Positions 1,146 to 54,615 of a stretch of 64,000 nt of DNA are shown here, piece after piece; the first letter of the stretch is position 1; every line of letters starts with the position of its first letter. Location: the NCBI GenBank assembly GCA_903813345.2, contig CAIIXF020000001.1, positions 3,348,001 through 3,412,000 on the forward strand, given 5' to 3'. A model generated the notes under the pieces. The model saw only the letters and a list, made by a program, of their open reading frames with translations. It did not search any database and was not told the DNA's origin. The DNA is from Owenia fusiformis (Eukaryota; Annelida; Polychaeta; Sabellida; Oweniidae). A program made the translations under genes and the position numbers.

Positions 1146-1155
1146 CTATGATTAC

Positions 1156-14542: not shown

Positions 14543-17230
14543 ATGAGGTAAAATTCTCCCATTACTTTCCCTTTTACAGATATATTCAAATTGATATCAA
14601 TTTTTATTTTGGTTCACTTTCAACATGAATGTTTCAACCTACCATTGAGATATATTTGAAATAATTGTGCTGCTCACACACTATAGAATCTTGAAATGTA
14701 AAATGGGTGATAATTTTGAAGTTGAAAAAAATGGCTGCCATGTTTTAATTTTGTATAAATAAGTCTAAGGAAAACTACATCTATAGTACTTGCAATTACA
14801 TTGTAAACTCACTACAAAGGTTATATCTCTCTCTAATGTATGTGTATTATTTCAGTACACTGCGTCTGCAGAAGCGTCTGGCATCTGCTGTGCTCAAATG
14901 CGGCAAAAATAAAGTTTGGTTGGACCCCAACGAAACAAATGAAATAGCAAATGCTAACTCACGTAAGTACATTTTGAATTAGTTCTGACTAAAGTGTTTA
15001 TTAACATAATCATAAACCTCATCTGATGATAATCACCAGATCATTGTCGAAATGGCAGCATTATATGCCTGATGGCTGATACGTATCATCTCTTCTCTGC
15101 TTTTGCAAATTATGTAACAAAGTCATTTCACTTAAATCTGATCTGCAGTAGAATTTCTGGATTTTGGAACATAAATGAATTGTCCTCGCATGTATCTGAC
15201 AGAACTCAGTCACTTGAACAGAATAGAATTGACCGAAATGAAAATCAACACACTCTGCTCATATTATTTGTCCCTGTCCTTGTCCCTTTAGAAGTTGTGT
15301 TTATTGCGATTCCAAAAAATCAGGGGTTATTTGCAAAATCCCAAATCTCATTCCAAACAATGCAAAAAGCAAGAAATTTTAAATTAAACTGGAGTTGATG
15401 CATAGTTCACCACCTTCTCGAATGCTGTTCACTCCAGAGAGATATCGGAGATCCATTTATATTTGTTTCGGTAAAATTTAGCGTGATTCCTCCAAGTATT
15501 GGTAGGTATTTTCGTAAGAAATAGATAAAAATATTGTATACAGATGACTGATTGGGGTGTTCTGCGGAACCATCGATTCCAAGTTGAATTTATTATTATT
15601 GTTTCGATTTGCAAGTGATCCGCTATCTGCTATCTGTTCCATTGGCTGTGAGACGAGATGTGTGTTCAAATACACTGTTTAGTTCATAGATTATCTTAGC
15701 AAGTATAAATGTTGCATTGTAAATATAAATATCTAATTTGTACTGTTGTATTTTTCTCAGGTCAGAATATCAGGAAACTGATTAAAGATGGTCTGATCAT
15801 CAGAAAACCTGTAGCAGTTCACTCCAGGGCTCGTGTGCGCAAAAATGCCATTGCACGAAGGAAGGGTCGTCACTCTGGCACTGGAAAGAGAAAGGGTACA
15901 GCCAATGCTCGTATGCCACAAAAAATTATCTGGATGAGGAGAATGCGTGTGCTTAGGAGACTTCTGAAAAAATACAGAGAAGCCAAAAAGATTGACAGAC
16001 ACATGTTAGTATACTTGGTTCTTTAGGAGTACCCATTTTAGTCTTTATAAGGACTTGCAACACATGACTGCATACATGCATCTTTTCATCATTTCAAAAT
16101 TACTCAGTTTTTTCATTGTAGACATCAAGTATCAAATTAGCCTCCCATAAGTAAATTGTTTAGAGCATAGGTTTTCCTTTTTGGGTAATCATGTAATGGT
16201 GTCTTCTCATATCAATACCATTATTTAACACTGACTGAATCTTAGTCCTTCTGAAATCATATTGATCTTGAGGCATCAACGCCTCTAAGTTAAGCTGAAG
16301 AAAATGAGCTTCCTGGCAAATTTAAAACAAAAGAAATAAATTCGAGGTTAAGTATTGATGTCTTTCAAATAATGTAGTATTCTTTGGTGTCTCAAACGGA
16401 CAGGCCAGTCAGCCAAATTAATGAATTAAACTAAAAATATGATTTAGTATTTACTTTATGTATAATTGCATTGTATTCCACAAAAATCAGGAAATTCCTG
16501 TATGTGTTTCAACAAAGATAAAGTATTCTTCTTTCTGATTTCCAGGTACCATCAGTTATACTTGCAATGCAAGGGTAACACATTTAAAAACAAGAGAGTC
16601 CTCATGGAACACATTCACAAAGAAAAGGCTAAGAAACTCCGAAGCAAACAGCTCAGGTTGGTTGATAGAAAACAATTGGTTATTGCAACCTTATTGCGAC
16701 AGCTCACATCACAGTTACTAGAATTACGTGTTTACTCAGACATTTAATTTCGCATAATTTTGCATTTCTGGAAATGCCACATAATTCATTCACCACTCGG
16801 AGCATAATTGTTTGTATAATTTACATTTTTCTGAAAGAATGTAGTCGAATTTATCTTACTGCAATACTTAACATTTTCACTAAACCAAAGCAAGTCAAAT
16901 TCCTATATGAAATGATCATTTCATTTAGGGCCAATGCTCTGGGACATAAACGAGAATGAACCAGTGAGCTGTAAATGTATCATATTTGCTGTCAATGAGT
17001 TCTACCTCGACATTTCAACTCTACCAAAATTCTCTTGATTACCATTTTGATCAGTTACAATAAATATATCACCTGTCACCTAAATTGTTCTCTTTTCTTC
17101 CAGTGACCAAGCTGAAGCCCGCAGGACGAAGACTCGTGAAGCTCGCAAGAGACGTGAGGACCGTATCGCACTCAAAAAGCAGGAGCTTCTCAAAACTTAT
17201 GCCAAGGAAGATGAGGCCGCCAAGAAATAG
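14543..17230 (+). CDS. RPL19: 60S ribosomal protein L19 (eL19)
   Basis: Structural protein of the large cytosolic ribosomal subunit. Five coding exons: 14543-14547 (only ATGAG, then GTAAAA), 14856-14962, 15761-16004, 16546-16656 and 17104-17230 with TAG. Coding length is 594 nt, giving 197 aa, one more than the human protein. Recognisable stretches are [80 protein letters not shown] and the basic C-terminal helix ending in KEDEAAKK. The five-base first exon matches the vertebrate RPL19 arrangement. A pyrimidine tract, tctccctctttc, lies about 23 nt before the ATG and resembles the 5' TOP start of ribosomal protein mRNAs. ATTAAA at about 17255 is a possible poly(A) signal. No disruption was seen. 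Confidence 0.97.
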
Positions 17231-23700: not shown

Positions 23701-26700
23701 ATATTAAAATTTGAAAGCGTTTTCCTTACTTTCCTGGTGCGTCGTAAGCTTTGACCCAGAGGCTCGATGCCAGTTGAATGATTTGGGCCTGCTAATTTTT
23801 TCATCTGATAATGTTTTGATTTGGCCCCTACATCCCAAATCCTTATGACGCATCCTACTTCCTCTTTTCCTAGTTTAATCAACTTTGTACGTGTCATTAA
23901 TACAATGCACTGTGTGTAATTACATCACAATAGAAGTGAAGTTAGATTAAATTCACAATTTGCAAAATATTTTATCTTTCTTACTAGTACTTTGGAAAAT
24001 TGCCTGATGAATTGGAGTTTAAACAAAATGATAATCAGTTGTTTATTTTTGAAATATTATTTGCAGTCTGTTTTGCACAAAAACAAAATTATTATGTTCC
24101 TCCACCGATATTATCAAAAATAGCTTGCATTTATCAGCATGTTAAACATTGAGAAAGCACCAATCTATCAGGCACATTTTATAGTCTGGTGGTCGATGGT
24201 ATTACCCATTTTATTTCACAATCACAATTACACATCCATTTTATGTTAATTGTAATTTTATGTGTAATGGCTTGTAATTGTGAATAAACTACTGTCCAGG
24301 GCTAAAGCTGAAATGAGTTAGAATTGGTTGCTGGTTTGCATCAATATTTTTAGGTGAAAGGGTACTTTTACATTTTGAAATTTTGTATTTGTTTTACTGC
24401 ATAAATGTCTGGCTCATATGCCAAAATGATCTTTTCAGCATGTTTCTCCAAAACAAATGTTTTATCATCTTTGATATTCTTCAGTATCAATGGATGTTTA
24501 TATGAGACACATTCTACCAGCATTATTAATATTTATTTCATTAATAATTAGTTGGTCTTAATAAGTCATTAAAATTATGAAAAAATGTTATTTTATTTTA
24601 GGTCAACCTGGCCTAGGGGGACAGCAGGTTGGTCCCCCAAGAGGAATGCCCCCAGTTGGGATGCCACCGGGCCCACCTGGGGGACTCCCCCCAGTAGGTA
24701 TGCCACCGGGAGCTATGCCTCCAGTAGGTATGCCCCCTGTTGGAATGCCCCCTGCCCAACCGCCTCAAGTGCCCCAACAACAAGGAATAGAAGGAGGAAG
24801 ATCGGAGGGCAGTCCCATCTCAGGCTTCCAATGTCCAGCAAGACCTAACCATGGTGTTGATGGTAGACCCATCATGCTGCGTGCCAACCATTTCCAAGTG
24901 CGTATGCCACAGGGCTTCATACATCACTACGATATTCAAATCACACCAGATAAATGTCCAAGAAGAGTTAACCGGTAAGTACAATATTAATGCATTTGAA
25001 AGATCTAAGTAATTATTATATCACTGTCATATTCCCCACTCTCTTATTGGTCTATACCATACACTTGACTAAAAATAAGAAGGCTTATTCATCGCCCAAG
25101 CACTGAAATTAAAAGAATGAAAGATGCACAAGTATTCACCTCCATAGTATGAAATATTTTTGGATTATCATCCCTTTTGCTGGTATGCTCTGGCTCTGGC
25201 TTTTAAATTCTTCATATATCTTGAAAAATGTTATTCTCTGGCACTTTACGAAAATAAGATGTTCCCCTTCTGTGTATAACATGAGTGTATTTGTTGAAAA
25301 CAGGAAACATATTTTTCCCAACAGGTGCTTATATTTGCCATCTGCTGTTTTCTAATAAAAGAGCTGATTATATGATCTTGACAGTTGACAAGCACCTTCA
25401 TCATTAATATTGGGTTGCTTAATGATTTCTATTTATTTATTTTCTTCCTCGAATGTTATTCATCATTCTTACTAGCCTATATCTTGTTTTGTAATGCATG
25501 TGAAATTATTGATGGTGCAGTAGAATAAACTATGAGTTAACATTTTGACAGTCAACTTCCACCCCTTCCTTGCCAGGTTCACAAAACTGCAAATTTTATT
25601 CTATTATGTTATCTAATGTCCCCTTGTGCCTGCTTTTTAATTAAATAATTTAGTCATTATTTATTTTTATTTTAGTGAAATCATAGAAACAATGGTGCAA
25701 GCCTACAGAAACCAAATATTCAATGGCCAGAAACCAGTATTCGATGGAAGGAAAAATCTGTACAGTCGAGATCCTCTACCAATAGGGCGAGATAAGGCAA
25801 GTGAAATATGTAACCTAGAAACTTTAAGCCATAAAGTCTATATGTCAGTACCCTGCGTGCAGAGTCTAGTTAAACTACACTCTGCCTAGGAGAGACTATA
25901 TTGCAGTTTAGTAGCCCCGCCCCCACGACGGGTACCGGTGACAGTTTGGGTAATAAATCACTTTTGACCTACGCGCTGACCTTTCTTCCACCAATCAGCG
26001 AGCTTGAAAAAACATACGCCAAATGCGTTCTTATTAAATATGCGCATGTCATTGGTCAATTCCGGGCTCAACAATGACGTCAGAAGGAATGACCATATAT
26101 AGAACGTCGGTCAAATTTGGCCGACGAACACTGATTGGCGCGGTGAGTTCACAGGTTTATTTTAGTTTGAAAGAGTGAAGACGAAGCTCTCTTTTAAGAA
26201 GTGAAGTCAAACGAATGCAAAGGGTAATATGTCAGAATTAGAAAATGTTCATACATTCACAAATTGTGTCAACTTTTACTTTGTTTCATAAGTAGTGTAC
26301 TACTGTAAGACATGTGCATATTGAATGCCTATGGAGCTACAAAAACTAGGGAAGTGTCCACTACAGAATTGTTTTCAGTTGAAACATGTGTTCAGTAAAA
26401 TGGAGTGTAGCATGTTTTACTGCACAATACTTCCTATATGTCTGGCTTCAACGTAAATAATATGAATTGAAACCAAACAAACACTTTTATTTTAGATTGA
26501 AGTTGAGGTAACTTTGCCTGGAGAGGGTAAAGATCGTGTATTTAAAGTTGCAATCCGCTGGGTCGCCCAAGTCAACCTATATGCTTTGGAAGAGGCACTT
26601 GAAGGACGAAGCCATGCAATGCCATTTGAAGCAATCCAGGCACTGGATGTCGTCATGAGGCATTTGCCCAGTATGACGTAAGTCTTAATTATAACGAAAT

Positions 26701-29700
26701 AATTATAAGAATATATAATTAAGTGTATATACAGAATATGATTCGGTATGAAACGCTGAATTGGAGATTCTTAAACTAAATAAAATATTCGCTTTCAGGG
26801 TGAATGTTCAGCTTCAGTATTCAGGTTTTTAGGCAAATTGTTTTGTATTAATGTCAAATAATACACAGAAATTCTCATTTAATCTCCAGTGTGACTATTG
26901 GGATTGATTACATTGCTGAGATCAATTTTCTGCTGCCAGTCATGAAGGAAATAATGTTCTAGGCATGATTATGACGCACATGCACCAACATCCTGTAATA
27001 ATTATCCCATCGAATGAAGTTGGGAGGATATAGAGAACGCCTCTGTCCGTCTGTCTGGGCAATAGTTGGAATTCCATTGACCCAATGGCCAATATTGTTT
27101 ATATTTTATAACATATGACATATGCCCTATATGAGTAAAGTTGATTTTGGAAATGGCCACCAGTTTTAAAATAGCCACCATTTTAGTGTCAATTTTACAG
27201 TATTTTAGTTACAATATGTAATTCTGCATTACTTAAAGTAAAAACATGGCAGCCATGTTGAGTGATTTTTTGTTGAAATTTTACGCATGAATACTTGAAG
27301 CATATTACACTAATGACAGTGTAGTGGAGCGATTTTGGTGATATTTTTTATGTGAATTCTTATTAAAACTTTAAAGGCATGTATTACCTAATGACACTTT
27401 GGAAAATATTGGGAGCCATTTCCAGGAAATTATGGCCATTTTTGTTTGTGTTATTCTACATTTTTGCTATAATTGGAAAAGAAATAGAGCAATTTTGTTG
27501 ACACTGTTAAATTATATATCTGCTTTATATGGGCTTATTAGCCTATTGCAGATTATTGACATAGACATATCTTTTAGCAATACATCTATGGTTGCCATTT
27601 TGTGACATGATTTCTAGCAGTGTTGTCTGACACTCAATAGATGTTTGATAGGATCTTTCTCTTTGGCGTTGCTGTTATCTAGTTAGATATCCATTTTCAG
27701 GTCGTTATAGAGAAACCAAGCCTGGTGATTTTCATTACTTGAGTTTTCAATTTTGTGACATTCCTTTTCAGGTCCCTGGAGAGCAGATCAGATTTTCCAT
27801 TGATCTGTGAATAAATGTGCATCATATTAACTGCTTTGATTACTTACTAGGTATACCCCAGTAGGGCGTAGTTTTTTCTCACCCCCAGAGGGTAATTATG
27901 ACCACCCATTAGGCGGTGGGAGAGAAGTTTGGTTTGGGTTCCACCAGAGTGTACGTCCATCTTTGTGGAAGATGATGTTGAACATTGATGGTAAGACTGA
28001 ACTGTGTATATTTCCATGTATTGTTCTATGGTATGTGGCGGACCTGGCTAGCTGGCTTTTTCAATACAGGTGTAGGATGTGGCTACTTTGCATTTTTGAT
28101 AGCATGCATGGATGATCTGTTGTGCTGGTGTTTCTTTCATTATTACCCAAAGCATTCACATCAAGAATTTCTTGTGAAATACAATTCTTTCTGGCTTAAA
28201 CAACAACAATATCAACAATATGTTCACAATTTTTATATATAGTATATTCACATATTTATTTCACAAGATTCACACAGATTGATCTCTCATATTAATCTTG
28301 TGACATCATATATTGGGATGTTCAAAGTCAAATTGTATTTCACTAAGAAGGGAAATCTTGGTTCATACATGTTTGCTTGGTGTGTTTGTCTGCCTGCTTA
28401 TATATATTGGGATTCCATCCCCCAAGTGCACCTAATAAAAGAACTTTAAGGTACACCTTAGGGATGTTCCCTGGAGGTTTAAAAATAGTATTTTTGGTAC
28501 TTTTGTCATTCATAGTTTTCTGAGGTTCTAATTGGCAACAAAAGATATAAAACTTAAAAAATTATATTCTGTTAGTGTGCTTTTTTCCAAGAAATATTTG
28601 ACAAAATTGGGCGTGGCACTACCTCATTGAATCCCATGTAAACAATCAGATTTCACCCGAAACACAATTTGAAGTATTTAACTTTTCTTAAACTCACAGG
28701 AACACTTAGTTATGATATGTACATTACATTTGGAAGAAAGAAAATTTACCAATTAATGTTCATAATTTTCAACTTTGTCCAGGGTACATCCTTAATGGAT
28801 TTAAAAAACAGTGAATTCAAAACATTACAGGCTGGCATCTTGATAGAAATTGAGTTGTATGAATCCATGTTTTTTGGAGCTTGGTGATAGCTTAAGCTTG
28901 GGGATGGCTTTCTTAGTTATAATATAAGCAGGCAGATGCGTCATGTCACCGTTTTTGGTGTACTTTGTTTTAACTTCAATATTATGGTTACCTACAGCTT
29001 TAAAGAAACAATCAATTGAGTAGCCTAATTTGAAGTTTAGCAAAGTGCATATTCAATGACTGCCCCAGGTTCCCATGGTTTTTGTTGCTTGCTTTGAGTT
29101 TTCACCTTTACGTAGTCATGTGTTTAATTGCACAGATATACCCCAGTCGGCCGGTCTTTTTTCTCACAACCGGAAGGCTACAATCACCCCTTAGGTGGAG
29201 GCAGGGAGGTTTGGTTTGGATTCCACCAAAGTATCAGACCAACTCTATGGAAAATGATGCTTAACATAGACGGTAAACAAACGCAATGATATATTATTGT
29301 AATGGCCTTGTTAGTATAAATGCTTTCTTGGATTGGTGCTAGAATCTTAGACATTGTATTAAGTTGTTTTTATGTGTTACTTGGTCCGATGCATGTATAT
29401 AGTAAGATAAACTATTAAGAGGAAAATATTTAAATAATATGTGTTTTTTCGCTGCATATTTACTCTAGTATTCACATATTTCTTTGTTAGTTATGTTGAT
29501 TAATAAAAATACCTAGAGATATGCCTGCCAGTAAAAGAGCAAGATCTCTAGTAATAAAAATTAAAGTGATCAAATTTACTTTGTTTATGCTTATTTGAGG
29601 AAAGCCAGAAGGATGAGGCTGGTAGCATCTAATTTCACAATCTATTTTATTTAGTTTCTGCCACTGCCTTCTATCAGGCACAACCTGTGATAGAGTTCAT

Positions 29701-32700
29701 GTGTAAAGTCCTTGAAATGAGAGATGCCAGTGAACAACGTCGCCCACTTACTGATTCGCAACGAGTTAAATTCACCAGGGAAATCAGAGGTAAATGCTAC
29801 ATTCTGCTTTATTATTTTATTCAGTGTCCGCAACTGCGTTCTATAAAGCTCAGCCTGTCATCGAGTTCATGTGTGAGGTCCTTGACATGCGAGACGCCAG
29901 TGAACAACGACGTCCACTAACTGATTCTCAGAGAGTTAAATTCACCAAGGAGATCAGAGGTAAACAAATAAACAATATCTGTGAGTTGTGAAGCAAACAA
30001 ACAATGTTGTTGCGTGTTGGTGTTTGTAAACGTAGTACTCATAAGTCTTGTATCAAGCCATTGTGTACCCCCCCCCCCCACCTCAGCATTAAATGCTTTA
30101 TGAACCAGTGTAAGACCGATTTGGCAAATTAGAGCGCAGTAGTAGAGACAAGAGAGCAACCCCTTTGCTTTCAATAAAAATATACCACCAGTTATTATAT
30201 GCAGTTCATCTATCCATGTGTAATGCATTCATTTAGGCAATAAAGACGCTAACACCTGACACCTGGCTATTGCCTCATGAATAATTGGTTACACCCAAAG
30301 TACTTACAAATAATCCTCTATGAAAAGAGATATGATAATGGGGGAAATAACCTTGATGCAAGACTATAAACGCATGAAAGTTGATGTAAATATTATCTTT
30401 AATAAAGCTGGAAACTTGCTTGTAAATTTTACAGGTCTGAAAGTGGAGATCACACATTGCGGCACCATGAAACGAAAATACAGAGTTTGCAATGTTACAC
30501 GTCGTCCAGCGCAGACACAATCGTAAGTTAATTTATCAGTTTATCTTGTGGCTGTATTTTTGATGAGTGACTGGATTTGTTATCAAATAACTTGCGTGGT
30601 TAGCCATTTCCCACACTTGTAAGAGTATAGGCAACTTGGATTTAGTGAGTGAATCCATAAATTGGTACATGTACAATTATAACCTGTGAAGTGAACACCT
30701 CCATAACTGGAACACTTTTAAAGGTCACTTACCCATTAGCTTCATGTAAAATGAACTTCTGTACGTGGAATGCCTTCTAAGAGGACCATTTACTATTTAA
30801 AGGTACCAAATGTGTTCTACTTACACAGGTTTTACTGTATATCATAAAATCTACATGTGAAATATGTTTTTTCAGCTTCCCACTCCAGCTTGAATCTGGA
30901 CAAACCGTGGAGTGCACAGTGGCCAAATACTTCTTTGAACGATACAAAATGAAACTTCAGTAAGTATAAATGCAAATTTTTATTGGAACTGGTAGTGTTG
31001 GAATCCCCATGTTGTTGATTATACAGGGTCTTGATAGTTCATCCATGTTCCTCTACATTGAGAAAACGATACCTTCATCAAACTTACTTTGATGTTACTA
31101 TAACAAAATAAGAATAAACATTTAAACTTGTTCAGCATTTTCTTGTCAATGTCAAATGTTTTGATACGATAACATAAAAAAGTGATTTGATTTGTGAATC
31201 CATGTTAAAATTCTTATGTATATTACAGTGAGATGTTTCCTGTTATTTCAGATTTCCTCACCTGCCATGTTTACAAGTAGGTCAGGAACAGAAGCATACC
31301 TACCTTCCCTTAGAGGTATGGAGTTACCTTATCACGAATTAAACCTTATTTAAGAGGCAAATTAATCATTTATATACATACATATAAAATATGAGCTGAA
31401 TAACTTCAACGTCTATGATGAAAAAAAATTAAAAATTACCACGGTGTGTTTTGCTATTATTTGATTCATTGTCAAATGATTATGTGCTTATCTCAGTTCA
31501 CCTTATGATCACCTCAGTTATTCTATAGCTATCAATTCATTTTTCCATGACTATCACTTTATTGTACCACATCTTTCACCTTATTTATTCTGCAAATGTA
31601 CTCCAAATATTATGTTCCACTCAATAGTTTCCTTCCTGAAAAAATATTAGCCTGACTCATTAAAACTCACTCTTAAATTGTGGCCTCGGAGTTAATTTTA
31701 CTCCTAACCTATACTATGTGTATTACATCATGTGCATTATTACATCATGTGCATTATTACATCATGTGAATTAGGTGTGCAGGGTCATTGCTGGGCAGAG
31801 ATGTTTGAAGAAGTTGACTGACAACCAGACCTCCACTATGATCAAGGTAGTTATATTTTTACATGTTTATCTTGTAGGTTTGTGTTATAGTGGCTGGACA
31901 ACGCTGTATGAAGAAACTCACTGACATGCAAACATCAACCATGATCAGGGTATTCTTTTCATTCACATATTATACATGTGTTATATACCTGTTATTAGTA
32001 GCAAGCATGGTAAAGTTTGAACCTATGGACCATACATGCGTCATCGTGTGCTACTCTTAAAAGTGTCATAAATGGATACGTGGTGATTAGATTGCTGTTG
32101 TTAAACTCTGAAATGAGTCATACAGCAAAAGTAAATTTTCTGTATTCACATACAGATTTTTTTGTACATGGTGATGTATTCTTAGCCGCACTTTATTAGC
32201 TGAGAAATCTAATAGTTTAGCCTATTGTATGTAATTATCAAAGAGGTAATTACAAGTACCTATATGTAACCTGAAAAAAGTACAGGTTAAATGAATATGT
32301 TACTGTATGAATTTGTTCCTTCCGAAATTTCGGTTTTCTGAAAATTATGACATTGATATCTGGTAAAAGTTCAAAATCAATTCATGGAAGTGACCCGGGA
32401 ATATGTTGATAAAATGCAATCAACATCTTCATTGCAACCATGTATATCAAACTTCTACCATGCACTATTAGATAAAGTGTAATGTAGCATGCATGAGTAC
32501 ACATTCATCCCTTCTTATCCGCTATTGAAAATTGTGCAATGATACAACTTTTTTATTTAAATAGTGCAATGTTTAGGCAAGCAGAAATTTATTTTAGAAA
32601 GGCCTGCTTTAGTTCAGTTCATTGTTCTACGGAAGTTGTAGAATTTATGTATACTCATGTATTTCTATTAGTCATACTCAAGTAGATAATCGAAATGTGA

Positions 32701-35700
32701 TTATTAAATTTTTGTCTAACTAAGTTCTCTAATTTTTTTATTAAATGTATGAACTCGTATTTCATCAATGAAAATTTGGTCTAGAATCTAGACTGCATGT
32801 TGATTAGATGATTATTCCTATTTGCATGATTTGTTGTCTTTCTTTGAGAATATATCTTCAGAATATGATAAAGGATTCCTTTTCAATATGTAATTCAGAT
32901 TGAAAGTTCTATATACATGTTCATGTGTCAGGTGAGTTGATCTGGATGAATAATAAATATACACATGGATGTCTGGGATATGACAGACCATTGAATCCTC
33001 AAAGCACTAAATCCTTTAGTAGGATTATGAGCCATTTAGGTAGGCATCGGTATAGATTTTGGACATGGTACACATGTAAAAGGCCCAACAGCCAGTTTAA
33101 TCACTGTACACTGCCTACCTAAGTCTTTGTGACTCCTATTTGTGAAGAGTTATTTTATGTCTGACAATTAACATATATTGTATTGTTATATTGTAGGCAA
33201 CTGCCAGATCTGCACCAGATAGAGAGAAAGAGATCAATAGCTTGGTAAGTCAGCATTCCCCATTAAAGTAATTATTACCACTAGGAATACATTCAAGCTT
33301 AAGCAGTCTAAAGGCTCATTGAATTTCCCTGTCTTAATGTTAAATAAATGATATATAAAATGTTATCATATGGACTATCATTGTTGGTAAATGCTTAGAA
33401 GTGAATATACATTGTTCAACACATCAGTGACTGGTGCTTACAAATTGATTGCTTTATACATTAGATACATATCACTTTGTTTTCTCATATACATTTATTA
33501 TACATGTATGTGAAATTGATTATATGCTGGAGATAAAACATGGTAAGATACTCAGATACGCAGCTGTAATTTTGCCAAGCTAGAAATTTTTTGTCCAAAA
33601 TTAAGGTCGAGGATAAATATAAGTTAAATGATCAAACTAGCCTTTCCTTTAACCCTTATCCTCCCAAGACTAGATTGTTTCATGATTCTATACTTCTGCC
33701 ACCAGAAGTTGTGTCGATGCCAAAATTATTTCTCCCAACTTCTTTGTGACCAAAATATTGTTTAAAAATCAATGATACCAGAAACTTATTTGTAAGGTAA
33801 ATAAAGAAAATGTTGGAACATACATATCAGTACATTTTTAAGCATTATGAAATTCCTGACATTTTATTACTTGTCACTGGGAGATAAGGGTTACATAGGA
33901 ATGTTAGTTTTGCCTAAATGTTTAATTTCTTCATTGTACAGTATGCCAGAAGGAGGAATTTTTGTAAGAGTTTACTTGGTTATAATATAAAGCCAACAAG
34001 TTTGACCATTTCCATGTATTTCTATATTCATGTGTTTTTGTGATACACTTTTCGAAACACTCAAAGTTTTAGTTTTTAGAGAATTTTGTCTTTTGCCCAT
34101 TTTTATATCACTTTCTTTTCTTAAATCTTTATATCTAAAAAAAGAGATGATGAATTTTTTTGTCCATTTTTTATCAGTTTCTTTTCTTATAAATTAATAT
34201 CTAAAAAAGAGAAATTAACTTCCAATCTCCTTTCAGTCTACTTCTGTTGCCCTTGTATTACAAAAGTCATCCCCAAGTATCATTCTGCTGTGTTTCTCCT
34301 TTTGATTAAATCTCCTGTCATTAGAATTGTGTTGAAATGATTAGCATTATGTTGTATAACTCAAACAAGCTTAAAATTATATAGAGTGAGCTTGAAAATA
34401 TTTGCACTCCATTCAAATATGTCGGAGAAGTTGACCAGAGTTGACGGGAGGACAGTAATTGCACCCATTGATCTTATTTCTTGCCATGTGCCTAGGTACG
34501 CAAAGCTGACTTCAACAATGACCACTACCTACAAACATTTGGCATCAGCGTGGCGAACGCTATGACCGAAGTTCAGGGTCGTATCTTGCCCCCGCCTAAA
34601 CTACTCTATGGTGGAAGGGTAGGCATACATTATACAACCCCCGATCAAAGACCACAATAATACAGTCATACAGCATAATGAATCAAATTATTTAATTCGC
34701 ACAATAAAATTAATTCTCATCAATGAAGTCAGTTTATTATGCTCCATTCATGTATAGTTTGGGATTTTTCATATAAAGAAATGGTTGCATTTCTTTCAAA
34801 CCATATTATGCTGTGTGTTTAGAAATTATTGTGTCCTTTGATGTTTATTTTTCAGTCTGACTGGCAATAATAGGCTGAGAAACAATGCATATGACATTTC
34901 TGTCAATCCCAGCAGTTGATATGCATATATGGCCTAATATTGCATGTGATATGGTGAGAGGTGTGCAATGGCTGGTCACTCACACTTAACCAATCGGGTG
35001 CCTCTGTCTGTCTACTTATAAGCCGCCATTTCACACCTCATCACCATTGCTGTCTCAGTGAGAGGCATGTTTGTGATATGAAAGGTCCCGTCACTTCTGA
35101 GTGTTCGGAGTGCCCTCTGGTGATGTATGTTTGTGATATCGTGTTTTGCGACCCATTCTGTTGCCATTAGGTTCGTAAAGCTGATTTCAACTCGGATCCC
35201 CATCTACAACTGTTCGGAGTGAGTGTGTCCAACAGAATGGTAGAAGTCCAAGGCAGAGTTATCCCACCCCCCAAACTACTGTACGGAGGAAGGGTATGTT
35301 AAGAAGGACCACGCCTGTGATGCATGCGTTGTTTCAAAATACAGACAAGCTGAATGTTCTGAGCTGCCAATCATCATCTATCCCATAATGCACCTGGTGC
35401 TGTCTGCTCTTTCACTTCCAGATAATTCCCCATTCAAAAACTGTCAATTTTTGGTCTAAGAAGTATTGGAGAAAAAAAATGAAAAACAAGAAATAAAATC
35501 TGTTACATTTTGGGGAAATGTCTTGCAGATGAGAGAGTGGCAGGCATATTGTTATATGTATGTCTTGAGGAAGTGTAGATGTTTTATTCGAAAACCTACG
35601 TGTTTTGTCGAGATTTTCTCTTTGTTTAGTTTGTCTAATACTCTAACATCACTTCATAACCTCTGTACAAGTAATCATCAATCCAAGCACTGTTTTAGAC

Positions 35701-38700
35701 ATCAAACATGGTTTTTGAGAAACCGAAAACTTAAAGAAACTGGAAAATGATTATTACTTGTTTTGTTAGATCTAGTAGCTCAGATAATTTCAGTTTTGTT
35801 GTCTTTATAGTTTTAGTTTATTTTCTATTTTGGTTTCAGTATTTAGCCATAATATCCCAAAATTATCTTTTTAAAATATTTTTAATGCATGTTCATTATT
35901 ATTTAATTTTTGTATGCAAATTCTGAAATCACTTGTTTACACTGGACATGTATTATAGTGCAAATTATCCATTGCAATGTTGTTCCTTTAAATTAGTGCA
36001 GGTAGGTAGGTATTCACCATATTCACCTCATATATTGTTATCCCATATGTGCTTTTAGAATTCATTCCCAAGTGGCTGAACAGATTCTCATTCATATATT
36101 TAGTCCTAGATCATTTCCCAATTTTTTGTTTTGTTTTTATGTCACCACCAAAAGTGGTGACATATTATTAAAGTCTCCAACTCTTTGTGGACTGTGTTCA
36201 GCAGTTGATGTTCGGTGGTTGGTGTTCAGCATCTGTAATAAATGGCAGGTAGTGACATTTTGCATGCTGATGCCTTGTTAATAATTGAAATGAAATTGTT
36301 TAGTTTTGAATTATTATGATTTCATAGTAATTTTATTTTGACTTGAATGTAACCTATTCAATCATGATTAACCAAACGTGTGATGTGCTCGAGTGAAAGT
36401 GTGTGTGTTTGGATCAGTGTGATAAGAAAGAAAATAAAAAGTAATATCTGGAGTACATTTCATCAAGAAAGGTTTTAAACTCAATGATGTACAGGTGTGT
36501 AGATTTGAGTAAGCTTTGTATTTGGTAAATGCTCCAGATGTAACACTCCCATGTGATCGATGTATGAATGTGGCTTTATTCCCAACTGGCTTACATCTTG
36601 ATGAGAACATCTTTCATTTACATGTGCTTATGTAAAGCTCACATGTTCTTCACATGAAAACACATATTTTGCAATTATAAACAGAAGCACTATGAGATAC
36701 AAATTCGAACATTTTCTCATCACCAAATTTTGCACTTTGTCATTTCATCTTAGAAATCAGTATAAAATTTTTATGTTGAAAATATATTTACTATTAGTTT
36801 TATTATATCCATCACACTATTTGCAACTCAAGACAACACTAATAAAGTTTTTAAAGAATTACCAACTGAACATAAAATCTTGTTACCATGACAACGAGAA
36901 ATCAGATTTATACAAACATTGATTTTACTTGTAGACGAAAGCCCAGGCTATTCCCAACCAGGGAGTATGGGACATGAGAGGTAAACAGTTTTACAGTGGA
37001 ATAGAGATCAGAGTCTGGGCAATTGCATGTTTTGCACCTCAGCGTACAGTCAGAGAAGATGCTCTAAGGTAAAAACAATATAGCCCCCAAGAGTGCTTTA
37101 AATAATAATTATTCAATAATTGTATATATGAAATTATAAACAGTTTGTTGAGGGGAGAAGTACTCATGAAAATATAGAACAAATGAAGTAAGAATGATCC
37201 ATCCCCTGGACAAAGATCACATGACTGAGGTCAAGGTCACGAGGTAACTGAGACTTCAAACTGTTAGAATCGAAGAGTTTTACTTCTGAAATGCTAAGCA
37301 AATAAAGATAAATTCAACAAATAGTAAACTTAACTCAAGGGTACACAAGAACAAGTTAACTTGTGTTGCTTTGGGCACTTTAGAGAAACAATCATTTTCG
37401 ATAAATAGTAAATAAAAAATTTTCCAGTTTTATGATGAGAAAAAAGCCTTGCTATTTAATATTTATGAATTATTTTTCAGAAACTTCACATCCCAGTTAC
37501 AACGTATATCTAACGATGCAGGAATGCCTGTAGGGGGTCAACCATGTTTCTGTAAGTACGCCACAGGCCCTGACCAGGTAGAGCCCATGTTTAGATACCT
37601 GAAGAACACATACCAGGGCCTACAGCTCATCGTCGTTGTGCTTCCTGGAAAAACACCCGTATATGGTAAGTGTTGAAATTTTATTACAGTAAAGACATTT
37701 CAATTGAACAACTCTCTACAAAGAAGTTAGTCCCATTTACATGTAATATAAATGAACCCCCACTATCTATGAGGAACTATTTGGCCAATACTGAATGTGT
37801 TCTGTTGACACAGGTTTTATAATATGAAGTAAAACCTGTTTCTTTGAATACCAAAAGGGTTCCCTGGGGTTTGAAAAACAAAAATCCCTGGCCTGGAAAA
37901 GTTCATGAATTTCAGAATTTCCTTTAAAATGTCTAAAATTGATTTTATGCTGGTAGCATGTCTGTGATGTTCTTTTTTGTGTAATGCCAAGAATAACAGT
38001 TCCCTTTACTACATGGAAGTTTCTATGTATTTTAGCTGAGGTTAAGCGAGTGGGTGATATTCTATTTGGTTTGGCCACTCAGTGTGTTCAGGCAAAGAAC
38101 GTCATTAAAACATCCCCACAGACCCTCTCTAACCTATGCCTTAAGATCAACGTCAAACTAGGTGGCATCAACAGTATACTCATGCCTAGTGTTAGGTAAG
38201 TCATACATTTCTGCTATAGGTTCATTGTAAACAAAATTATATACTGTATTCTCTGTATTGGCTTGGGAGTTTATGAAATTCGAAATACATCCTTCAGACC
38301 ATTCAAATAAGCGCCCATAAATGAACGTTAAAAATCCCTGGTAGTTTCATATGTGGCAATTTTCTTGCCAAGAATGGCTTATTCTCATTTGAATTTATAT
38401 CTTAAATTTTTAATTGAATGACAGATCATCATTTTCAAGTTCACAGCCCTGAAGTGCGCAGAAGCTTTCTTGGTTACATGTTGAAACATTGTTCTTAAAC
38501 TTGAACATTTCCTTCATTCATATATCAGGCCAGCAATATTCCGAGAGCCTCTCATCTTCATTGGTGCCGACGTAACTCACCCGCCAGCAGGTGACGTGAC
38601 AAAACCCTCAATAGCAGCCGTTGTGGGCTCACAGGATGCCCATCCCAGTCGATACGCCAGCACTGTCAGAGTCCAGTCTCACCGGCAAGAAATTATCACC

Positions 38701-41700
38701 GATCTAGCCGCCATGGTCAAAGAACTGCTCGTCCATTTTTACAAGTCCACCAAGTTTAAGCCCACCAGAATCATCATGTACAGGGATGGTGTCAGTGAGG
38801 GCCAGTTCGCTGAGGTTAGTAGCTTGCTTGATTACTCATTGAAATCAAGAATCGCAACATTTTTAAATGTTATATTCAATATTGAATATAACATTTTTGT
38901 TAACTGACATTCAGTATCTTTAACAAATGGTACTTTTGTGACTGCAGTCATGTGATGACATTTTTTAAAGTTAAAATGGTGCTTTGTTGCTGTTGAAATG
39001 AGAAGAATATATACTATTAAGAGAATACTTTTACACTTGCTTGTGTTCTTCATTGAATTCAGGATTACTTTGTGCTTCCATCTGTTCTTTTTTCAATTAA
39101 ATTCAAATTGCTTCTGGTTTATAAGTAAAACATGATTGTTGAAAATCTAATTAGCCATGAAATGTATATGCCCCTGGCCTTTTTCTTTTTCGTGTATTGT
39201 ATGAAACATTGTTTGATTGACTTTTAATTTAATAAATTGAATTGAACTGAATTGAATTGAATTGAACTGAACTGAATAACAATTAGAGTAAAACCTGTAG
39301 AAATGAACACCTTTGGTACCTCAAATTTAGAAGGTGTTCCACTTGCAGAAGTTCATTTAGCAATATTCAGTTATTCAGTAATAGTTGAAAAGTGTTCCAT
39401 TTATGGGAGTGCTTCTCTTACAGAGGTCTTCCCCTTCACAGGTTTTACTTTAGATAACTTCAGTTGTTCTTGAAGTAAGTAGTATGTTAATGATTTTATA
39501 AAAAATTCTTGTTAGGTTTTGGTGCGTGAGCTACGTGCCTTACGTGAGGCCTGCATGAAGCTGGAAGTTGGTTATCAACCAGGAATCACATTCATTGTGG
39601 TCCAGAAGAGACATCACACAAGACTCTTCTGTGCAGACAGGAAGGACCAGGTAATATAATACAGAGTTTCATGTCATCATTGAAAAGTTAAGCTACATGT
39701 TTTTTAAGAAAACGTGTACATGAGTGTCTAATATTATGACCCCAGGGATTACAGAAAGGACCAGGTAATATAATACAGAGTTTCATGTCATCATTGGAAA
39801 GTTAAGCTACATGTTTTTTAAGAAAACGTGTACATGAGCGTCTAATATTATGACCCCAGGGATTACAGGAAGGACCAGGTAATATAATACATGATTCATG
39901 TCATCATTGGAAAGTTAAGCTACACGTTTTTTAAGAAAACGTGTACATGAGTGTCTAATATTATGACCCCAGGGATTACAGAAAGGACCAGGTAATATAA
40001 TACAGAGTTTGATGTCATCATTGGAAAGCTGAGTGTGTGATGTGTAATATTATGACCCCAGGGATAACCATCCTCATCTCACATGACTCTTCCAGGGACC
40101 TAATTACTACTATTTCCCTTATGCCTTTATTCTCAGTAAATACAATGAAAAGAAGAATTTATGTTAACTGAAAATGTCTAACTTCTGAAGTTTGTCCTGA
40201 TTGGTTAACAAATGGCTACATATTTTTGGGCATTGACCTAATTTCTACTCAGCTATAAACTGAACATAGACATAAGCTATTGTAGAATGAATCATCACCT
40301 TCTCTAGATTCTAAATTGATTTGTGTAAGAGTGCTAACATTTCTCATGTTTGTTGTTAGATTGGGCGCAGTGGTAACATTCCAGCAGGTACAACAGTGGA
40401 TGTAGGTATCACCCACCCCACAGAGTTTGATTTCTACCTATGCAGCCATGCTGGGATCCAAGGCACAAGTAGGCCTTCTCATTATCACGTCCTGTGGGAT
40501 GATAACCGATTCACAGCTGATGAGCTGCAGATGTTGACATATCAGCTGTGCCACACCTATGTACGTTGTACCAGAAGTGTCTCGATTCCTGCACCTGCTT
40601 ACTATGCACATCTTGTGGCATTCAGAGCCAGATATCACCTTGTAGAGAAAGATCATGATAGGTAAAGTAGCATATACCTATTTTATGTCTAGTCCTGTTT
40701 TACTAAGTACTTATTATTGTGAGTTCATTTTTATGTCCCCATCATATGTGATGGAGAGATTACTTTTTAACAACTGTCAGTCTCTCGGTCTATTACTAAA
40801 ATCTAGAAGTTTAGGGTATCAAATGAATTAGGGAAATTTTTTAGTCCTTAACATTCATTTTTACATTCACAGTAAATGAGCATTTCAAACTTTTTTGCAA
40901 AATCTATACACTTAATGATGACTGCATCAGGCTGACGTGTTTAACCATGTGTAAAGTAAAATTTTGATTCAATCACACAAGTAAATTCATAGAGGTAATA
41001 AGCAGTATAAGGGTTCACTGGGTAATACATGGTGCCCTTAAAAGAACTTTCTAAAGATTTTTTATCTCTCTTAACTCTAACTTCATTCTATGTATACTAT
41101 AGCCTGTCTAATCTGAACGCAATTTAGATCTGCCAAAAGTTTTCTGATCACCAGGTATTCTCCTTTTGAGGTCTTAAGATCAGAGCATATGAAATAATGG
41201 ACTAAAAAAGATTCACATTGAGAGGTGTTCAATCATATAATAGGTGTTTGGATATACATGTTTTACTGTAGTTTAACATGGGGACATTCTACACTCTTGT
41301 GCTTTATTATTTCAGCAGAAACAAAGCAAATATTACCCAACAGAAAATGTCATTAAAAGAAAATGCCTATTCCAATCCATAGTTCACTTGTTATAATTTT
41401 TATTTATTTACATTAATTTACATATTGTTTTGATATTAAGTACATTGAACCCCCTTTACATTGTATACTGGCTTTCCTCTCTCTGGGGGGTGGTAGTTTG
41501 CCTATAAACCCGTCTGTTAAGTTTGTGAAAGAAGTTTATAACTTTGCAGTCTGCATGATACTGCAACAAGAAAGATGTTCAACATGACATAAAACATTAA
41601 GTTCTCAACAAACTCCAGTACTACAGTAGTATTGGAGAATATGTAACAGTGTATCTTTGGTTCATAAACTTCTTACTCTAGTTCCATTTTATATAAATGA

Positions 41701-43743
41701 TTCAGTCATGTTGGTCATGCTTCTGTGCATTTGCTTTATGCATGTGTGTCTAATGCCCTTTAGTTCAATTACTAGTGTATTCGTCACTATGGTGATGCTC
41801 TTGAAATATTTAATGAAAGCCAAAGTTTCATCAGTTCCAGTTATAAAAATGGATGCTAAAAGGAATAACTGATACACATGACTAATAAAAACATGCATGT
41901 CCTCAGAGTTGATACTAAAGTTTCACTATGCTGCCAATGGGGTTTCTATTCAGGATATCTTAATCACACTTGCTAGTTTTCTGTGTTCCAAGGTGCAAAT
42001 TTCTGCAAATAAAAATAGCAAATCTGTAAAGATTCTGCATTTATTGCAGCTGTTTTTTGGGGTTTAATTTGAAGTGTAGAAAATGTGTGATTCAATGAAG
42101 TAATTTTCTTTAATGAACATATGACAATTTAATACATGTCGATGTATTATATTTCATTGCTTCTGTTGTGCACATATTGATCAACATTGTAGGAAATGTC
42201 TAGAAATATAAGGTTTATGTATCCTAGATGAGCCGTTTCTGTTTTGTTAATTTGCAGTATTGAAAAATTCTGTAAATGAAAATAGCATTTTTCTGTTGTG
42301 TGTAGAAAATGGAAAACTGTAAGTGTGATTAATAAATGACAATTATTGAAATACATGCATCATGTTTTTAATGTATATCAGAATTCACAAACTTAACCAG
42401 TCAGATTGATGGCAATTTTTCCCACCTTAATCTTGATTCATTTTTGAAACAAGTGCTTTAGATTTAACATTTAAAAGAGCAATTAAACGATTCATAAATT
42501 CTGATATTACAGTATACTTAGTGGTAGCGGGATGCCAGTCATCTAACACGAATTATAAGCTTGTGTTGTGCATATGTTTCTTTTATTTTATTCTGCACAG
42601 TGCTGACAATGGAAGTTCAGGGAATGGTCACAGTTTCCATGCTTACGGGTCAACATCTGTATACAGGTACAAAATATAAAACATTTATTTCATTTTTAAC
42701 TTTTTGTTGTTTTCTGTTATTGCTTGCATATAGGAAATAACATAAGACCCTGCCCAAGAGGCTTTGTACTCCCAGAGTTTTTCTTGATTTGTTTTTAAAA
42801 ATCTGAGTTAACTGTGAATTTCAAGGGCATCATTGTGTATTGTTAATATGTTGGTGTGCTGTGGCTGCTGTGTGTGTTGTGTGGCTATTAACCACTGCTA
42901 GCTTATAGTCTACTCTGTAACCTGCATTCACTTATACCTCCTGTCAATATGCAACAACCATATTATCAATCCAATACCACTTTTTATGTTGAGACACCTA
43001 ATCACTGTGTCCAATTTTAATTATATATTTTTGGGAAATATTGTCCTGTTTCTACTCACTACTAAGCGGGTAGCAAAAATTTCAACACAAAGGAGTGACA
43101 CCAGTAGGTTCCTGCCAAAATGATACATTATTGCTTGGAAATTTTGAATGTGCTTGTTTATAAACATAAAAACACAAAACCATGTCTCTTCTATCAAAGC
43201 AATCCAACATATATTATCAGATATTCAATAGACATAGATACAATTTTTGCTTTTTGAGAGACATTATAATTCAAGAAAAAAGATGGCAGTGTGGGTGGTC
43301 TTAAGGAAAGCATGGTGACCAGAAACAAGAATTACTTTTGCTTGGCCTAATTTATCTTCTGTGAAATTAGCTTTCATTATGCTTAACTGCAGTTTGTGCT
43401 TTTTATTTTTACAATTTACACATAATTTCCATGTATGCTTATTAGCATGATAACAGAATGCCCCTTTATAAAATTGGAATAAACCATTTAGATCAGTCAA
43501 AAGTCCTCTTACCTTACCTAAAAAATAGAAGGATTGGACTACCACTAGGGCTAACCCAAACTCTGATTCCTTCACATTTACCTTTATTTGAAGTAGACGT
43601 GTAATTAATTAATGATGTTGTTTGCTTTCAGTGGGGAGGGCAGCCAGTTGTCTGGAGATCCATCGACTGACCACAACCCCCAGGCTCTGGCGAGGGCCGT
43701 CTCAGTGCATCCTGATACATTCAAAGTCATGTATTTTGCCTAG
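20769..43743 (+). CDS. AGO: Argonaute, AGO1/2 clade, slicer-type, with four duplicated alternative exon pairs
   Basis: Guide-RNA-binding protein of RNA silencing. Exons: 20769-20796, 22052-22129, 24602-24974, 25676-25796, 26496-26677, pair E (27851-27990 or 29136-29272), pair F (29655-29789 or 29825-29959), 30435-30522, 30876-30959, 31252-31315, pair J (31775-31846 or 31878-31949), 33197-33244, pair L (34496-34618 or 35171-35293), 36935-37068, 37481-37665, 38036-38195, 38529-38814, 39516-39650, 40360-40661, optional 42601-42666, and 43632-43743 with TAG. With E1 and the optional exon this gives 2916 nt, 971 aa. Domains: Pro/Gly/Met-rich N-terminus (about 36-75), N, L1, PAZ, L2, MID and PIWI. 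The tetrad is complete at D686 (GADVTHPP), E726 (RQEII), D758 (YRDGVSEG) and H896 (YYAHLVAF), so it should cleave targets. Ends in MYFA. The first two exons are assigned by phase and are less certain. Confidence 0.95.
25797..25802 (+). other. Non-canonical GC donor (GC-AG intron) in AGO
   Basis: The exon ending PLPIGRDK stops at GATAAG and continues with GCAAGT. No GT gives the correct phase 0 junction to the next exon (ATTGAAGTTGAG). The exon end AAG|GCAAGT is the strong consensus typical of real GC donors, which compensate for the mismatch by pairing well elsewhere with U1 RNA. Confidence 0.75.
25914..26142 (+). promoter_or_regulatory. Promoter-like island inside the AGO gene with a possible alternative first exon
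   Basis: Within the intron between 25796 and 26496 there is a short stretch richer in GC and CpG than its surroundings. It holds a GC box (ccccgccccc, near 25914), CCAAT or inverted CCAAT boxes (about 25991, 26051 and 26133), a perfect CRE (TGACGTCA, 26075-26082) and a TATA-like element (catatatag, 26094-26102). About 40 nt after the TATA, a good donor (GCG|GTGAGT, 26143) could end a non-coding first exon that splices to 26496. This could make an Argonaute lacking its N domain. A solo LTR or an inserted promoter is the alternative explanation. Confidence 0.5.
27851..27990 (+). CDS. AGO: AGO alternative exon E1 (L1 region)
   Basis: 140 bp. Encodes [20 protein letters not shown] followed by [20 protein letters not shown] and MMLNID. 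Entry in phase 2, exit in phase 1, GT-AG. It corresponds to the L1 linker before PAZ. Compared with E2 it has one extra residue (GNYDHP against GYNHP) and P/Q, V/I and S/T changes. Length is 2 mod 3, so inclusion of both E1 and E2, or of neither, shifts the frame. Confidence 0.93.
29136..29272 (+). CDS. AGO: AGO alternative exon E2 (L1 region)
   Basis: 137 bp. Encodes [20 protein letters not shown], then [20 protein letters not shown] and MLNID. Acceptor gcacag, donor GAC G|GTAAAC. Same entry and exit phase as E1, 1145 nt downstream. Many third-position differences against few amino acid changes indicate an old duplication under purifying selection. Confidence 0.93.
29655..29789 (+). CDS. AGO: AGO alternative exon F1 (start of PAZ)
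   Basis: 135 bp. Encodes [20 protein letters not shown] and continues to RVKFTREIR. It differs from F2 at 4 of 45 residues (Q/K, K/E, E/D, R/K) but at about 17 synonymous codons, so both copies are constrained. The donor AGAG|GTAAAT is followed 35 nt later by the F2 exon, too close for splicing F1 to F2. Confidence 0.94.
29825..29959 (+). CDS. AGO: AGO alternative exon F2 (start of PAZ)
   Basis: 135 bp. Encodes [20 protein letters not shown] and continues to RVKFTKEIR. It is closer to vertebrate AGO than F1 in having YKAQ and CEVLD. Its polypyrimidine tract and acceptor (ttattttattcag) lie within the 35 nt gap after F1. Joined to the next exon by G|GT giving GLKVEITHC. Confidence 0.94.
30677..30840. 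mobile_element. MITE of the TACAGTAAAACCTG family in an AGO intron
   Basis: It runs from ataacctgtgaagtgaacac to ttacacaggttttactgta. Similar elements occur at 39289-39455 and, more diverged, at 37684-37815, and the family resembles 284-1145. Confidence 0.6.
31775..31846 (+). CDS. AGO: AGO alternative exon J1 (end of PAZ, start of L2)
   Basis: 72 bp, phase 0 to 0. Encodes [20 protein letters not shown] then TMIK. By alignment with human AGO2 the TMI residues fall at the beginning of helix-7, whose isoleucine (Ile365 in human) kinks the guide between nucleotides 6 and 7. Donor ATCAAG|GTAGTT. The J2 copy begins 31 nt later. Confidence 0.93.
31878..31949 (+). CDS. AGO: AGO alternative exon J2 (end of PAZ, start of L2)
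   Basis: 72 bp, phase 0 to 0. Encodes [20 protein letters not shown] then TMIR. It differs from J1 at 6 of 24 residues: R/V, V/I, I/V, L/M, N/M and K/R. Acceptor tatcttgtag, donor ATCAGG|GTATTC. Only 31 nt separate it from J1, below any usual animal intron length. Confidence 0.93.
34496..34618 (+). CDS. AGO: AGO alternative exon L1 (late L2 linker)
   Basis: 123 bp, phase 0 to 0. Encodes [20 protein letters not shown], then [20 protein letters not shown] and R. Acceptor tgcctag, donor GGAAGG|GTAGGC. It lies between the exon ending DREKEINSL and the exon starting [15 protein letters not shown], the usual order in Argonaute. Confidence 0.93.
34951..35047 (+). repeat. Inverted repeat in the intron between AGO exons L1 and L2
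   Basis: atggtgagaggtgtg (34951-34965) is the reverse complement of cacacctcatcaccat (35032-35047) apart from one extra base. The arms are 66 nt apart, so the pre-mRNA can form a stem of about 15 bp 120 nt before exon L2. Confidence 0.65.
35171..35293 (+). CDS. AGO: AGO alternative exon L2 (late L2 linker)
   Basis: 123 bp, phase 0 to 0. Encodes [20 protein letters not shown], then [20 protein letters not shown] and R. It differs from L1 at 10 of 41 residues, the most divergent pair, with changes clustered in the first two thirds. The intron from L1 is 552 nt, and both exons are multiples of three, so neither frame nor distance forbids double inclusion. Confidence 0.93.
36136..36280 (+). repeat. 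Short copy of the GTCACCACCAAAAGTGGTG repeat in an AGO intron
   Basis: Begins ttttatgtcaccaccaaaag and ends tgctgatgccttgtt, the same ends as the 17591-18122 copy but with most of the middle missing. Confidence 0.6.
39289..39455. mobile_element. MITE of the TACAGTAAAACCTG family in an AGO intron
   Basis: From gagtaaaacctgtagaaatg to cacaggttttactttag, with internal gtgttccact blocks as in 284-1145. It lies just before the exon at 39516. Confidence 0.6.
39638..40060 (+). repeat. Tandem repeat that copies the end of an AGO exon and its 5' splice site
   Basis: About four units of 113-114 bp begin in the exon ending ADRKDQ. Each contains AAGGACCAG|GTAATATAATAC. Donor positions are 39651 (the true one), 39765, 39879 and 39992. 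Units are nearly identical apart from a shorter last one, so the expansion is recent. Use of a downstream copy would read GTA ATA TAA, a stop before the catalytic histidine exon. Confidence 0.88.
42601..42666 (+). CDS. AGO: AGO optional 66 bp cassette exon near the C-terminus
   Basis: Encodes [20 protein letters not shown] then Y, with split serine codons AG|T at both ends. Acceptor ctgcacag, donor ACAG|GTACAA. Vertebrate AGOs run directly from ...KEHDS to (G/A)EGS. Skipping this exon restores exactly that junction (DHDSGEGS), so I infer that this exon is an optional insertion of 22 residues in the loop before the conserved C-terminal helix. Confidence 0.75.
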
Positions 43744-54453: not shown

Positions 54454-54615
54454 AGTCCTATAGCTCAGTGGTAGAGCAATCGCGCGTAAAGCGAGGTGTC
54501 GTGAGTTCAATCCCTACTGTCACTGTTGATGTGGAAAAATCAGTCTGTCCTATAGCCCAGTGGTAGAGCATTCACCCTGAAAGGGAGGGGTCGTATGTTT
54601 GATCTCCATTGGGAG
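54454..54615 (+). other. Two tandem tRNA-like sequences
   Basis: tcctatagctcagtggtaga and tcctatagcccagtggtaga start two units about 90 bp apart, each preceded by gttgatgtg(g)aaaaa. The first has a paired D arm (GCTC/GAGC), an anticodon stem of 4 bp and B box GTTCAATCC. The second has GTTTGATCT. The T stems and acceptor stems pair poorly, so these look like tRNA-derived repeats and not working tRNA genes. Confidence 0.5.

Follow-up and report, generated by a model that had tools for sequence, protein, structure and literature searches.

A 64,000-nucleotide stretch of the genome of the polychaete Owenia fusiformis (Annelida; GenBank assembly GCA_903813345.2, contig CAIIXF020000001.1, positions 3,348,001 to 3,412,000 of the forward strand; hereafter the window, whose own numbering is used for positions) carries an AGO-clade Argonaute gene on its + strand (24602-43743, exons read by eye), in which exactly four of the 18 coding exon positions, namely E, F, J and L, are doubled in tandem. 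These pairs probably represent four old exon duplications kept as mutually exclusive alternatives in the single AGO gene found in this genome, from which up to 16 proteins could be made; judged from genomic sequence, the probability of this reading is about 0.8. The original prediction, drawn from the letters of the window, had placed four such pairs in one Argonaute gene. Coordinates, phases and open frames agree with it, and the observation is confirmed as right in nearly every detail.

The doubled exons are E1 (27851-27990) and E2 (29136-29272), F1 (29655-29789) and F2 (29825-29959), J1 (31775-31846) and J2 (31878-31949), and exons L1 (34496-34618) and L2 (35171-35293). Entry and exit phases are equal within each pair (2/1 in E, 1/1 in F, 0/0 in both J and L), all eight exons possess an AG acceptor and a GT donor, and in each of them two of the three frames are interrupted by stops, leaving the coding frame open. 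The members of each pair are neighbouring homologues that agree in phase and have their splice sites intact. Every one of the 16 exon combinations is open to the same stop and yields a distinct protein, in keeping with the predicted upper number. In a tblastn comparison of the exon peptides with the whole window (expect values up to 0.05), the second copy was recovered at 2.5e-27, 3.0e-24, 3.8e-10 and 1.1e-19 for E, F, J and L, respectively. The same search returned no third copies of these exons and no second copy on the + strand for the other 14 exon positions, so that the MID and PIWI exons are single, as had been proposed. Its remaining matches were those of the low-complexity exon B to its own complementary strand (8e-9) and one antisense match of exon N (0.012). 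Between copies, base identity amounts to 104/138 in E, 112/135 in F, 48/72 in J and 82/123 in L, and residue identity to 42/46, 41/45, 18/24 and 31/41, leaving out the one codon by which E1 exceeds E2. The F pair was also detected by Tandem Repeats Finder, as a 170-base unit of exon plus gap.

Joined in order, the exons encode a protein of 912-913 residues with ArgoN, L1, PAZ, L2, MID and PIWI in succession, all six Pfam models scoring above their cut-offs in the two of the 16 isoforms that were scanned. In a PDB sequence search, the 287-residue stretch from linker L1 to the end of linker L2 matched human AGO1 at 1e-159, and every one of the 28 distinct PDB sequences with an expect value of up to 1e-20 bears the name Argonaute or eIF2C. 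By these matches and by the genomic comparison described below, the protein is nearer to eukaryotic AGO than to PIWI. Four slicer motifs, including PAPAYYAH, occur in both isoforms checked, and all of them lie in single-copy exons. The slicer tetrad characteristic of an AGO-clade Argonaute is thus predicted, the four motifs presumably supplying its residues D-E-D-H.

Evidence that both copies have served as protein comes from the pattern of divergence. The rounded nonsynonymous differences are 8/34 in E, 4/23 in F, 11/24 in J and 17/41 in L (41/122 pooled), compared with a share of 76-79% by pair, or 78% pooled, expected without selection (p = 9e-12, 1e-9, 4e-4 and 3e-6 for E, F, J and L; 2e-25 pooled). 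Synonymous differences per site reach 0.87, 0.64, 0.86 and 0.80 (pooled pS 0.78), against 0.08, 0.04, 0.19 and 0.19 for nonsynonymous ones (pooled pN 0.11), and saturation of synonymous sites has been reached or passed in E, J and L, with a synonymous distance (dS) of 1.4 in F. The claim that divergence is mostly synonymous therefore stands overall, and is looser for J and L, in which 6 of 24 and 10 of 41 residues differ. Since nonsynonymous changes are few at near-saturated synonymous divergence, both copies of each pair appear to have been long kept as protein, and the duplications would be old. A copy unused since its duplication would, contrary to this pattern, have gathered nonsynonymous changes freely. 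The four exons were probably duplicated separately, at dates that saturation conceals, and the F pair could look younger than it is through gene conversion.

The surroundings of the exons point in the same direction. Compared in register, the sixteen 30-base flanks share 1-15 identical bases, 12 of the 16 lying at 8-12, which is about chance, and some flanks of F and J overlap the neighbouring exon; the highest value (15/30) is found just upstream of F. Such a fall of homology to about chance at the exon borders is as expected for old exon duplications. With regard to the ancestral state, human AGO1 shares the residue of copy 1 at 9 of the 26 variable columns, that of copy 2 at 10 (the inserted column being counted for copy 2) and that of neither at 7. 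The near-equal agreement suggests that neither copy is simply ancestral, although the F pair favours copy 2, with which human AGO1 agrees at all four variable positions.

The splice sites had been called good, which holds for their canonical dinucleotides and less so for the donors: paired-exon donors fit the consensus that we assumed for scoring (MAG/GTRAGT) at 5-7 of 9 positions, as against 6-8 of 9 for the 13 other donors. Because the two ranges overlap, weak splice sites of the paired exons are only suggestive. The donor of J2 fits at 5 of 9 positions, and the acceptor of J1 has 8 pyrimidines among 16 upstream bases. A 17-base tandem repeat (31721-31773, 3.1 copies) ends directly ahead of J1, forming most of this pyrimidine-poor acceptor region. 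The AG-free stretch before the acceptor measures 18-81 nucleotides in the eight paired exons and 14-83 in the others; the ranges being alike, this comparison of lengths gave no distant-branch-point signature specific to the paired exons.

How one copy could be chosen to the exclusion of the other would differ among the pairs. The gaps F1-F2 (29790-29824) and J1-J2 (31847-31877), both GT...AG, measure 35 and 31 nucleotides, compared with 292-2970 nucleotides for the other 19 of the 21 gaps. A steric limit of about 50 nucleotides from 5' splice site to branch point is quoted in the report on exons 4a/4b of OGDH (PMC7969005); since the whole of either intron would be shorter than this limit, a junction of F1 with F2 or of J1 with J2 should be impossible. 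The two gaps are thus probably too short for splicing, and a spliceosome unable to join across them would make F1/F2 and J1/J2 exclude each other physically. In the E pair the safeguard would lie in the reading frame: inclusion of both exons shifts the frame to a stop after 290 residues of 958, inclusion of neither leads to a stop after 241 of 866, and either transcript would probably be destroyed. Hence three of the four pairs seem to carry a built-in reason against double inclusion (frame for E, gap for F and J), and exon L none, so that exclusion of exons L1 and L2 would need regulators.

The positions of the swaps within the protein lend the arrangement its possible meaning. Residues were numbered by alignment to human AGO1 (5w6v) and are given here in AGO2 numbering, Pfam matches serving as a second guide to placement; over the query the 5w6v and AGO2 chains both run from 174 to 459, and residues singled out in PMC7670403 land at their expected positions. 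Exon E corresponds to residues 173-218 in linker L1, F to 219-263 at the end of linker L1 and the start of PAZ, J to 343-366 at the PAZ/L2 junction, with 8 of the 11 helix-7 residues, and exon L to 383-423 in linker L2, an alignment that agrees with the coverage originally proposed. The swaps are accordingly confined to L1/PAZ/L2, while MID, PIWI and the catalytic motifs are constant. Helix-7 (359-369), with I365 positioned between bases of the guide, and the base of L1 are described as part of a hinge that moves upon target recognition (PMC7670403). Swapping would alter this L1/PAZ/L2 hinge, including most of helix-7, and could adjust how duplexes unwind, how the seed is presented, how PAZ moves or which contacts are made with partners and kinases, not slicing itself. 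A tuning role of this kind is a serious candidate at somewhat less than even odds.

Of 12 single-residue patient mutations taken from PMC7670403, seven fall in E (F182del, L192P, G201C, G201V, H203Q) or J (T357M, M364T), the others being A367P (exon K), G573S, G733R, C751Y and S760R. The copies themselves differ at 184, 188, 189, 206 and 209 in E, with an insertion after 189 (another placement of the gap leaves four differences); at 226, 236, 239 and 260 in F; at 345-347, 353, 359 and 366 in J, of which 359 and 366 lie within helix-7; and at 390, 392, 393, 396, 399, 402, 404, 406, 412 and 413 in L. Position 393 is Tyr in exon L1 and His in exon L2. Phosphorylation of AGO2 at Y393 is described as EGFR-driven and linked to a disrupted AGO2-DICER interaction (PMC9338400), and the choice within the L pair would add or remove the residue matching human Tyr393. 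Besides, position 387, a phosphorylation site (Ser387) in human AGO2 (PMC9338400) and a serine in human AGO1, is Asp in both L exons, as if permanently phospho-mimicking.

A doubled locus can also arise when an assembly merges two haplotypes or two Argonaute genes, which the original prediction had itself named as grounds for its rejection. Nothing beyond the doubling speaks for such a merger. Whole blocks, with G, H, I and K and the introns among them, would have been doubled by it, and synonymous sites left unsaturated; the copies instead follow one another exon by exon in the order E1 E2 F1 F2 G H I J1 J2 K L1 L2, with single exons between the pairs and with all MID/PIWI exons single. Furthermore, synonymous sites are near saturation, far above heterozygosity, and the resemblance between the 30-base flanks of the copies is about that of chance. 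As neither doubled blocks nor low divergence were found, given copy order, saturation and single neighbours, a merger was rejected as exceedingly improbable. The count of Argonaute genes, which had been proposed as a check, agrees. A protein search of the 525-contig assembly (498.26 Mb) gave 26 candidates, all scored, and 24 matches, among which the Argonaute locus of the window was found once; the other matches lie at three places on contigs C9 and C12, show 34-42% identity over single exons only and resemble PIWI proteins, with a motif that we take to be typical of PIWI. The assembly thus appears to hold one AGO gene and three PIWI-like loci, with the reservation that absent matches do not prove absence. 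No tandem exon self-matches were seen in pieces L001 and L004 of the PIWI-like loci. The many self-matches in L002 (among the matches listed) and L003 have the appearance of minisatellites within introns that are translated in more than one frame; as the pieces may be shorter than the genes, a tandem exon pair may nevertheless be present in these loci. In L002 (on C9), a minisatellite of about 4 kb, its unit measuring about 135-150 bases, occupies about 512-4644 of the piece, just before a PIWI exon.

The remaining alternatives concern what becomes of the exons in transcripts. That one member of each pair, or of certain pairs, is dead or is hardly ever included would fit the weak J1 acceptor beside its tandem repeat and the poor J2 donor, yet purifying selection in every pair, together with intact frames and canonical splice dinucleotides in every copy, makes this improbable. 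Still less credible is the inclusion of both copies of some pairs as tandem segments. This could occur most easily in the L pair, whose exons stand 552 nucleotides apart and join in frame, whereas two E exons shift the frame, and a junction over the gaps of 35 and 31 nucleotides in the F and J pairs is unlikely. A doubled linker L2 segment would, moreover, alter the strict domain spacing of Argonaute. A more substantial alternative, though still a rather doubtful one, is that all eight exons are used and the isoforms are near-equivalent, purifying selection acting on whichever copy each tissue uses. The F copies differ at 4 of 45 residues, all mildly, and the E copies at 4 of 46 aligned residues plus the extra codon; the disease-mutated residues and I365, moreover, are shared by both copies. 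Near-equivalence is, however, difficult to reconcile with the location of all four pairs in the hinge region, with none in the MID/PIWI half, and with the larger differences of J and L, among them those at positions 359 and 366 (helix-7) and 393 (linker L2).

Several points also weigh against retention of the pairs as functionally distinct, mutually exclusive alternatives. The case is built on the genomic sequence of one species. Nothing was seen in the sequence that would block double inclusion of the L pair, for which neither gap nor frame acts as a safeguard, and skipping of F, J or L stays in frame. Long-range intron pairing did not exceed that of 30 shuffles each in six of eight intron pairs (z -1.5 to 2.4), whole-intron duplexes being a blunt test; the two intron pairs outside this comparison both involve intron L2-M. 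The disease residues 182, 192, 201, 203, 357 and 364, as well as I365, are identical in both copies, so that the swap does not act through them, and several of the differences are mild (Q/K, K/E, E/D and R/K in the F pair).

Nevertheless, mutually exclusive use of the four pairs would have close parallels in known systems. In alpha-tropomyosin, in OGDH (exons 4a/4b) and in Dscam, neighbouring homologous exons of the same phase are used in a mutually exclusive way, as is presumed for the pairs described here, and in OGDH short spacing is argued to enforce the exclusion, as would be expected here for F and J (PMC7969005). The OGDH intron measures 118-131 nucleotides in birds and mammals as given there (PMC7969005), compared with the shorter gaps of the F and J pairs. 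Unlike these systems, the host gene here is an Argonaute, with four separate pairs in one gene, and RNA structures for competing intron pairing of the Dscam type were not found among the six intron pairs compared as whole-intron duplexes. Among the matches listed, the nearest report is that of Ago1 in the shrimp Marsupenaeus japonicus, in which one invertebrate gene gives several proteins (isoforms A, B and C), with alternative splicing proposed; those isoforms are described as differing by an optional 9-nucleotide fragment and an 81-nucleotide fragment in PIWI, whereas homologous swaps in L1, PAZ and L2 leave PIWI constant here (PMC3510085). The short transcript of Drosophila ago2 (PMC3002974) and the mammalian readthrough product AGO1x (PMC6694283) also provide more than one Argonaute form per gene; in them the protein ends change, and the opening lines of both abstracts mention no internal exon pairs. 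Human AGO1-AGO4 are closely similar Argonautes with solved structures, but are encoded by four genes rather than by one gene with swappable exons. In the open full-text literature, no mutually exclusive or tandem-duplicated exons in an Argonaute gene were found among the matches listed, by title and start of abstract; as subscription journals and gene databases fall outside this scope, this negative speaks only weakly for novelty.

The diversity of animal Argonautes is usually described one gene at a time. A survey of bivalves reports one AGO and two PIWI proteins in Mytilus galloprovincialis and Lottia gigantea, and two AGO in Crassostrea gigas and Aplysia californica; its main text nowhere contains the letters "splic" (PMC4793324). 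Since one-AGO species are thus on record, a single AGO gene is not unusual in itself. The original prediction had further suggested that the organism tunes one catalytic Argonaute by splicing instead of keeping several genes; this interpretation is partly supported and, while reasonable, is unproven. In its broadest form, microRNA and small interfering RNA silencing would be run from one Argonaute gene with a combinatorial hinge, splicing factors choosing among as many as 16 forms according to tissue or stage, and the L pair switching kinase control of small-RNA loading, of the Tyr393 type, on or off; such a scheme must be regarded as tentative. If it were true, the combinatorial hinge would set seed presentation, unwinding and PAZ release, splicing would replace several Argonaute genes, and small-RNA studies that assume one Argonaute in such animals may average several. 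Likewise, conserved swaps limited to the hinge and helix-7 would amount to a natural mutagenesis of the part of AGO flagged by human disease mutations, and would offer a system for asking whether L1/L2 dynamics, apart from catalysis, are adjusted in normal physiology.

The single exons complete the gene on the + strand. Exon B (24602-24974) encodes a Pro/Gly/Met-rich N-terminus and the start of ArgoN; a first exon with a start codon was not found upstream of it. Exons C (25676-25796) and D (26496-26677) continue and end ArgoN, exons G (30435-30522), H (30876-30959) and I (31252-31315) encode PAZ, and exon K (33197-33244) encodes part of linker L2 with the last helix-7 residues. The end of linker L2, MID and PIWI with its catalytic motifs are contributed by exons M to R (36935-37068, 37481-37665, 38036-38195, 38529-38814, 39516-39650 and 40360-40661), and exon S (43632-43743) ends in VMYFA and the stop. 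Exon C uses a GC donor, intron C-D starting at 25797 with GCAAGT (a GC-AG intron). A 114-base minisatellite (39637-40028, 3.4 copies, 94%) begins within the 3' end of exon Q, so that the end of the exon together with its GTAATA donor recurs three times in the next intron, giving a row of duplicated 5' splice sites, each preceded by an acceptor-like TTACAG.

Searches of a prokaryote contig collection (five pattern stretches, none confirmed) and a viral collection (none) gave no AGO-encoding match, as expected from their content. In the assembly itself no match was obtained for COX1, the mitochondrial contig of which may be absent, for the mollusc haemocyanin domain, to which the control genomes gave no match either, or for hemerythrin, which was matched in 7 of 14 control genomes although a short gene split among exons may escape such a search; these negatives carry little weight as to lineage. 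Upstream of the Argonaute gene, the window contains two arrays of repeats of about 90 bases (8082-8665 and 12137-13628), the consensus units of which look mutually reverse-complementary by eye, and a coding stretch for ribosomal protein L19e (Pfam PF25476) within 15709-16023. A transfer RNA at 54454-54525 is the sole Rfam match above the gathering score in the window.

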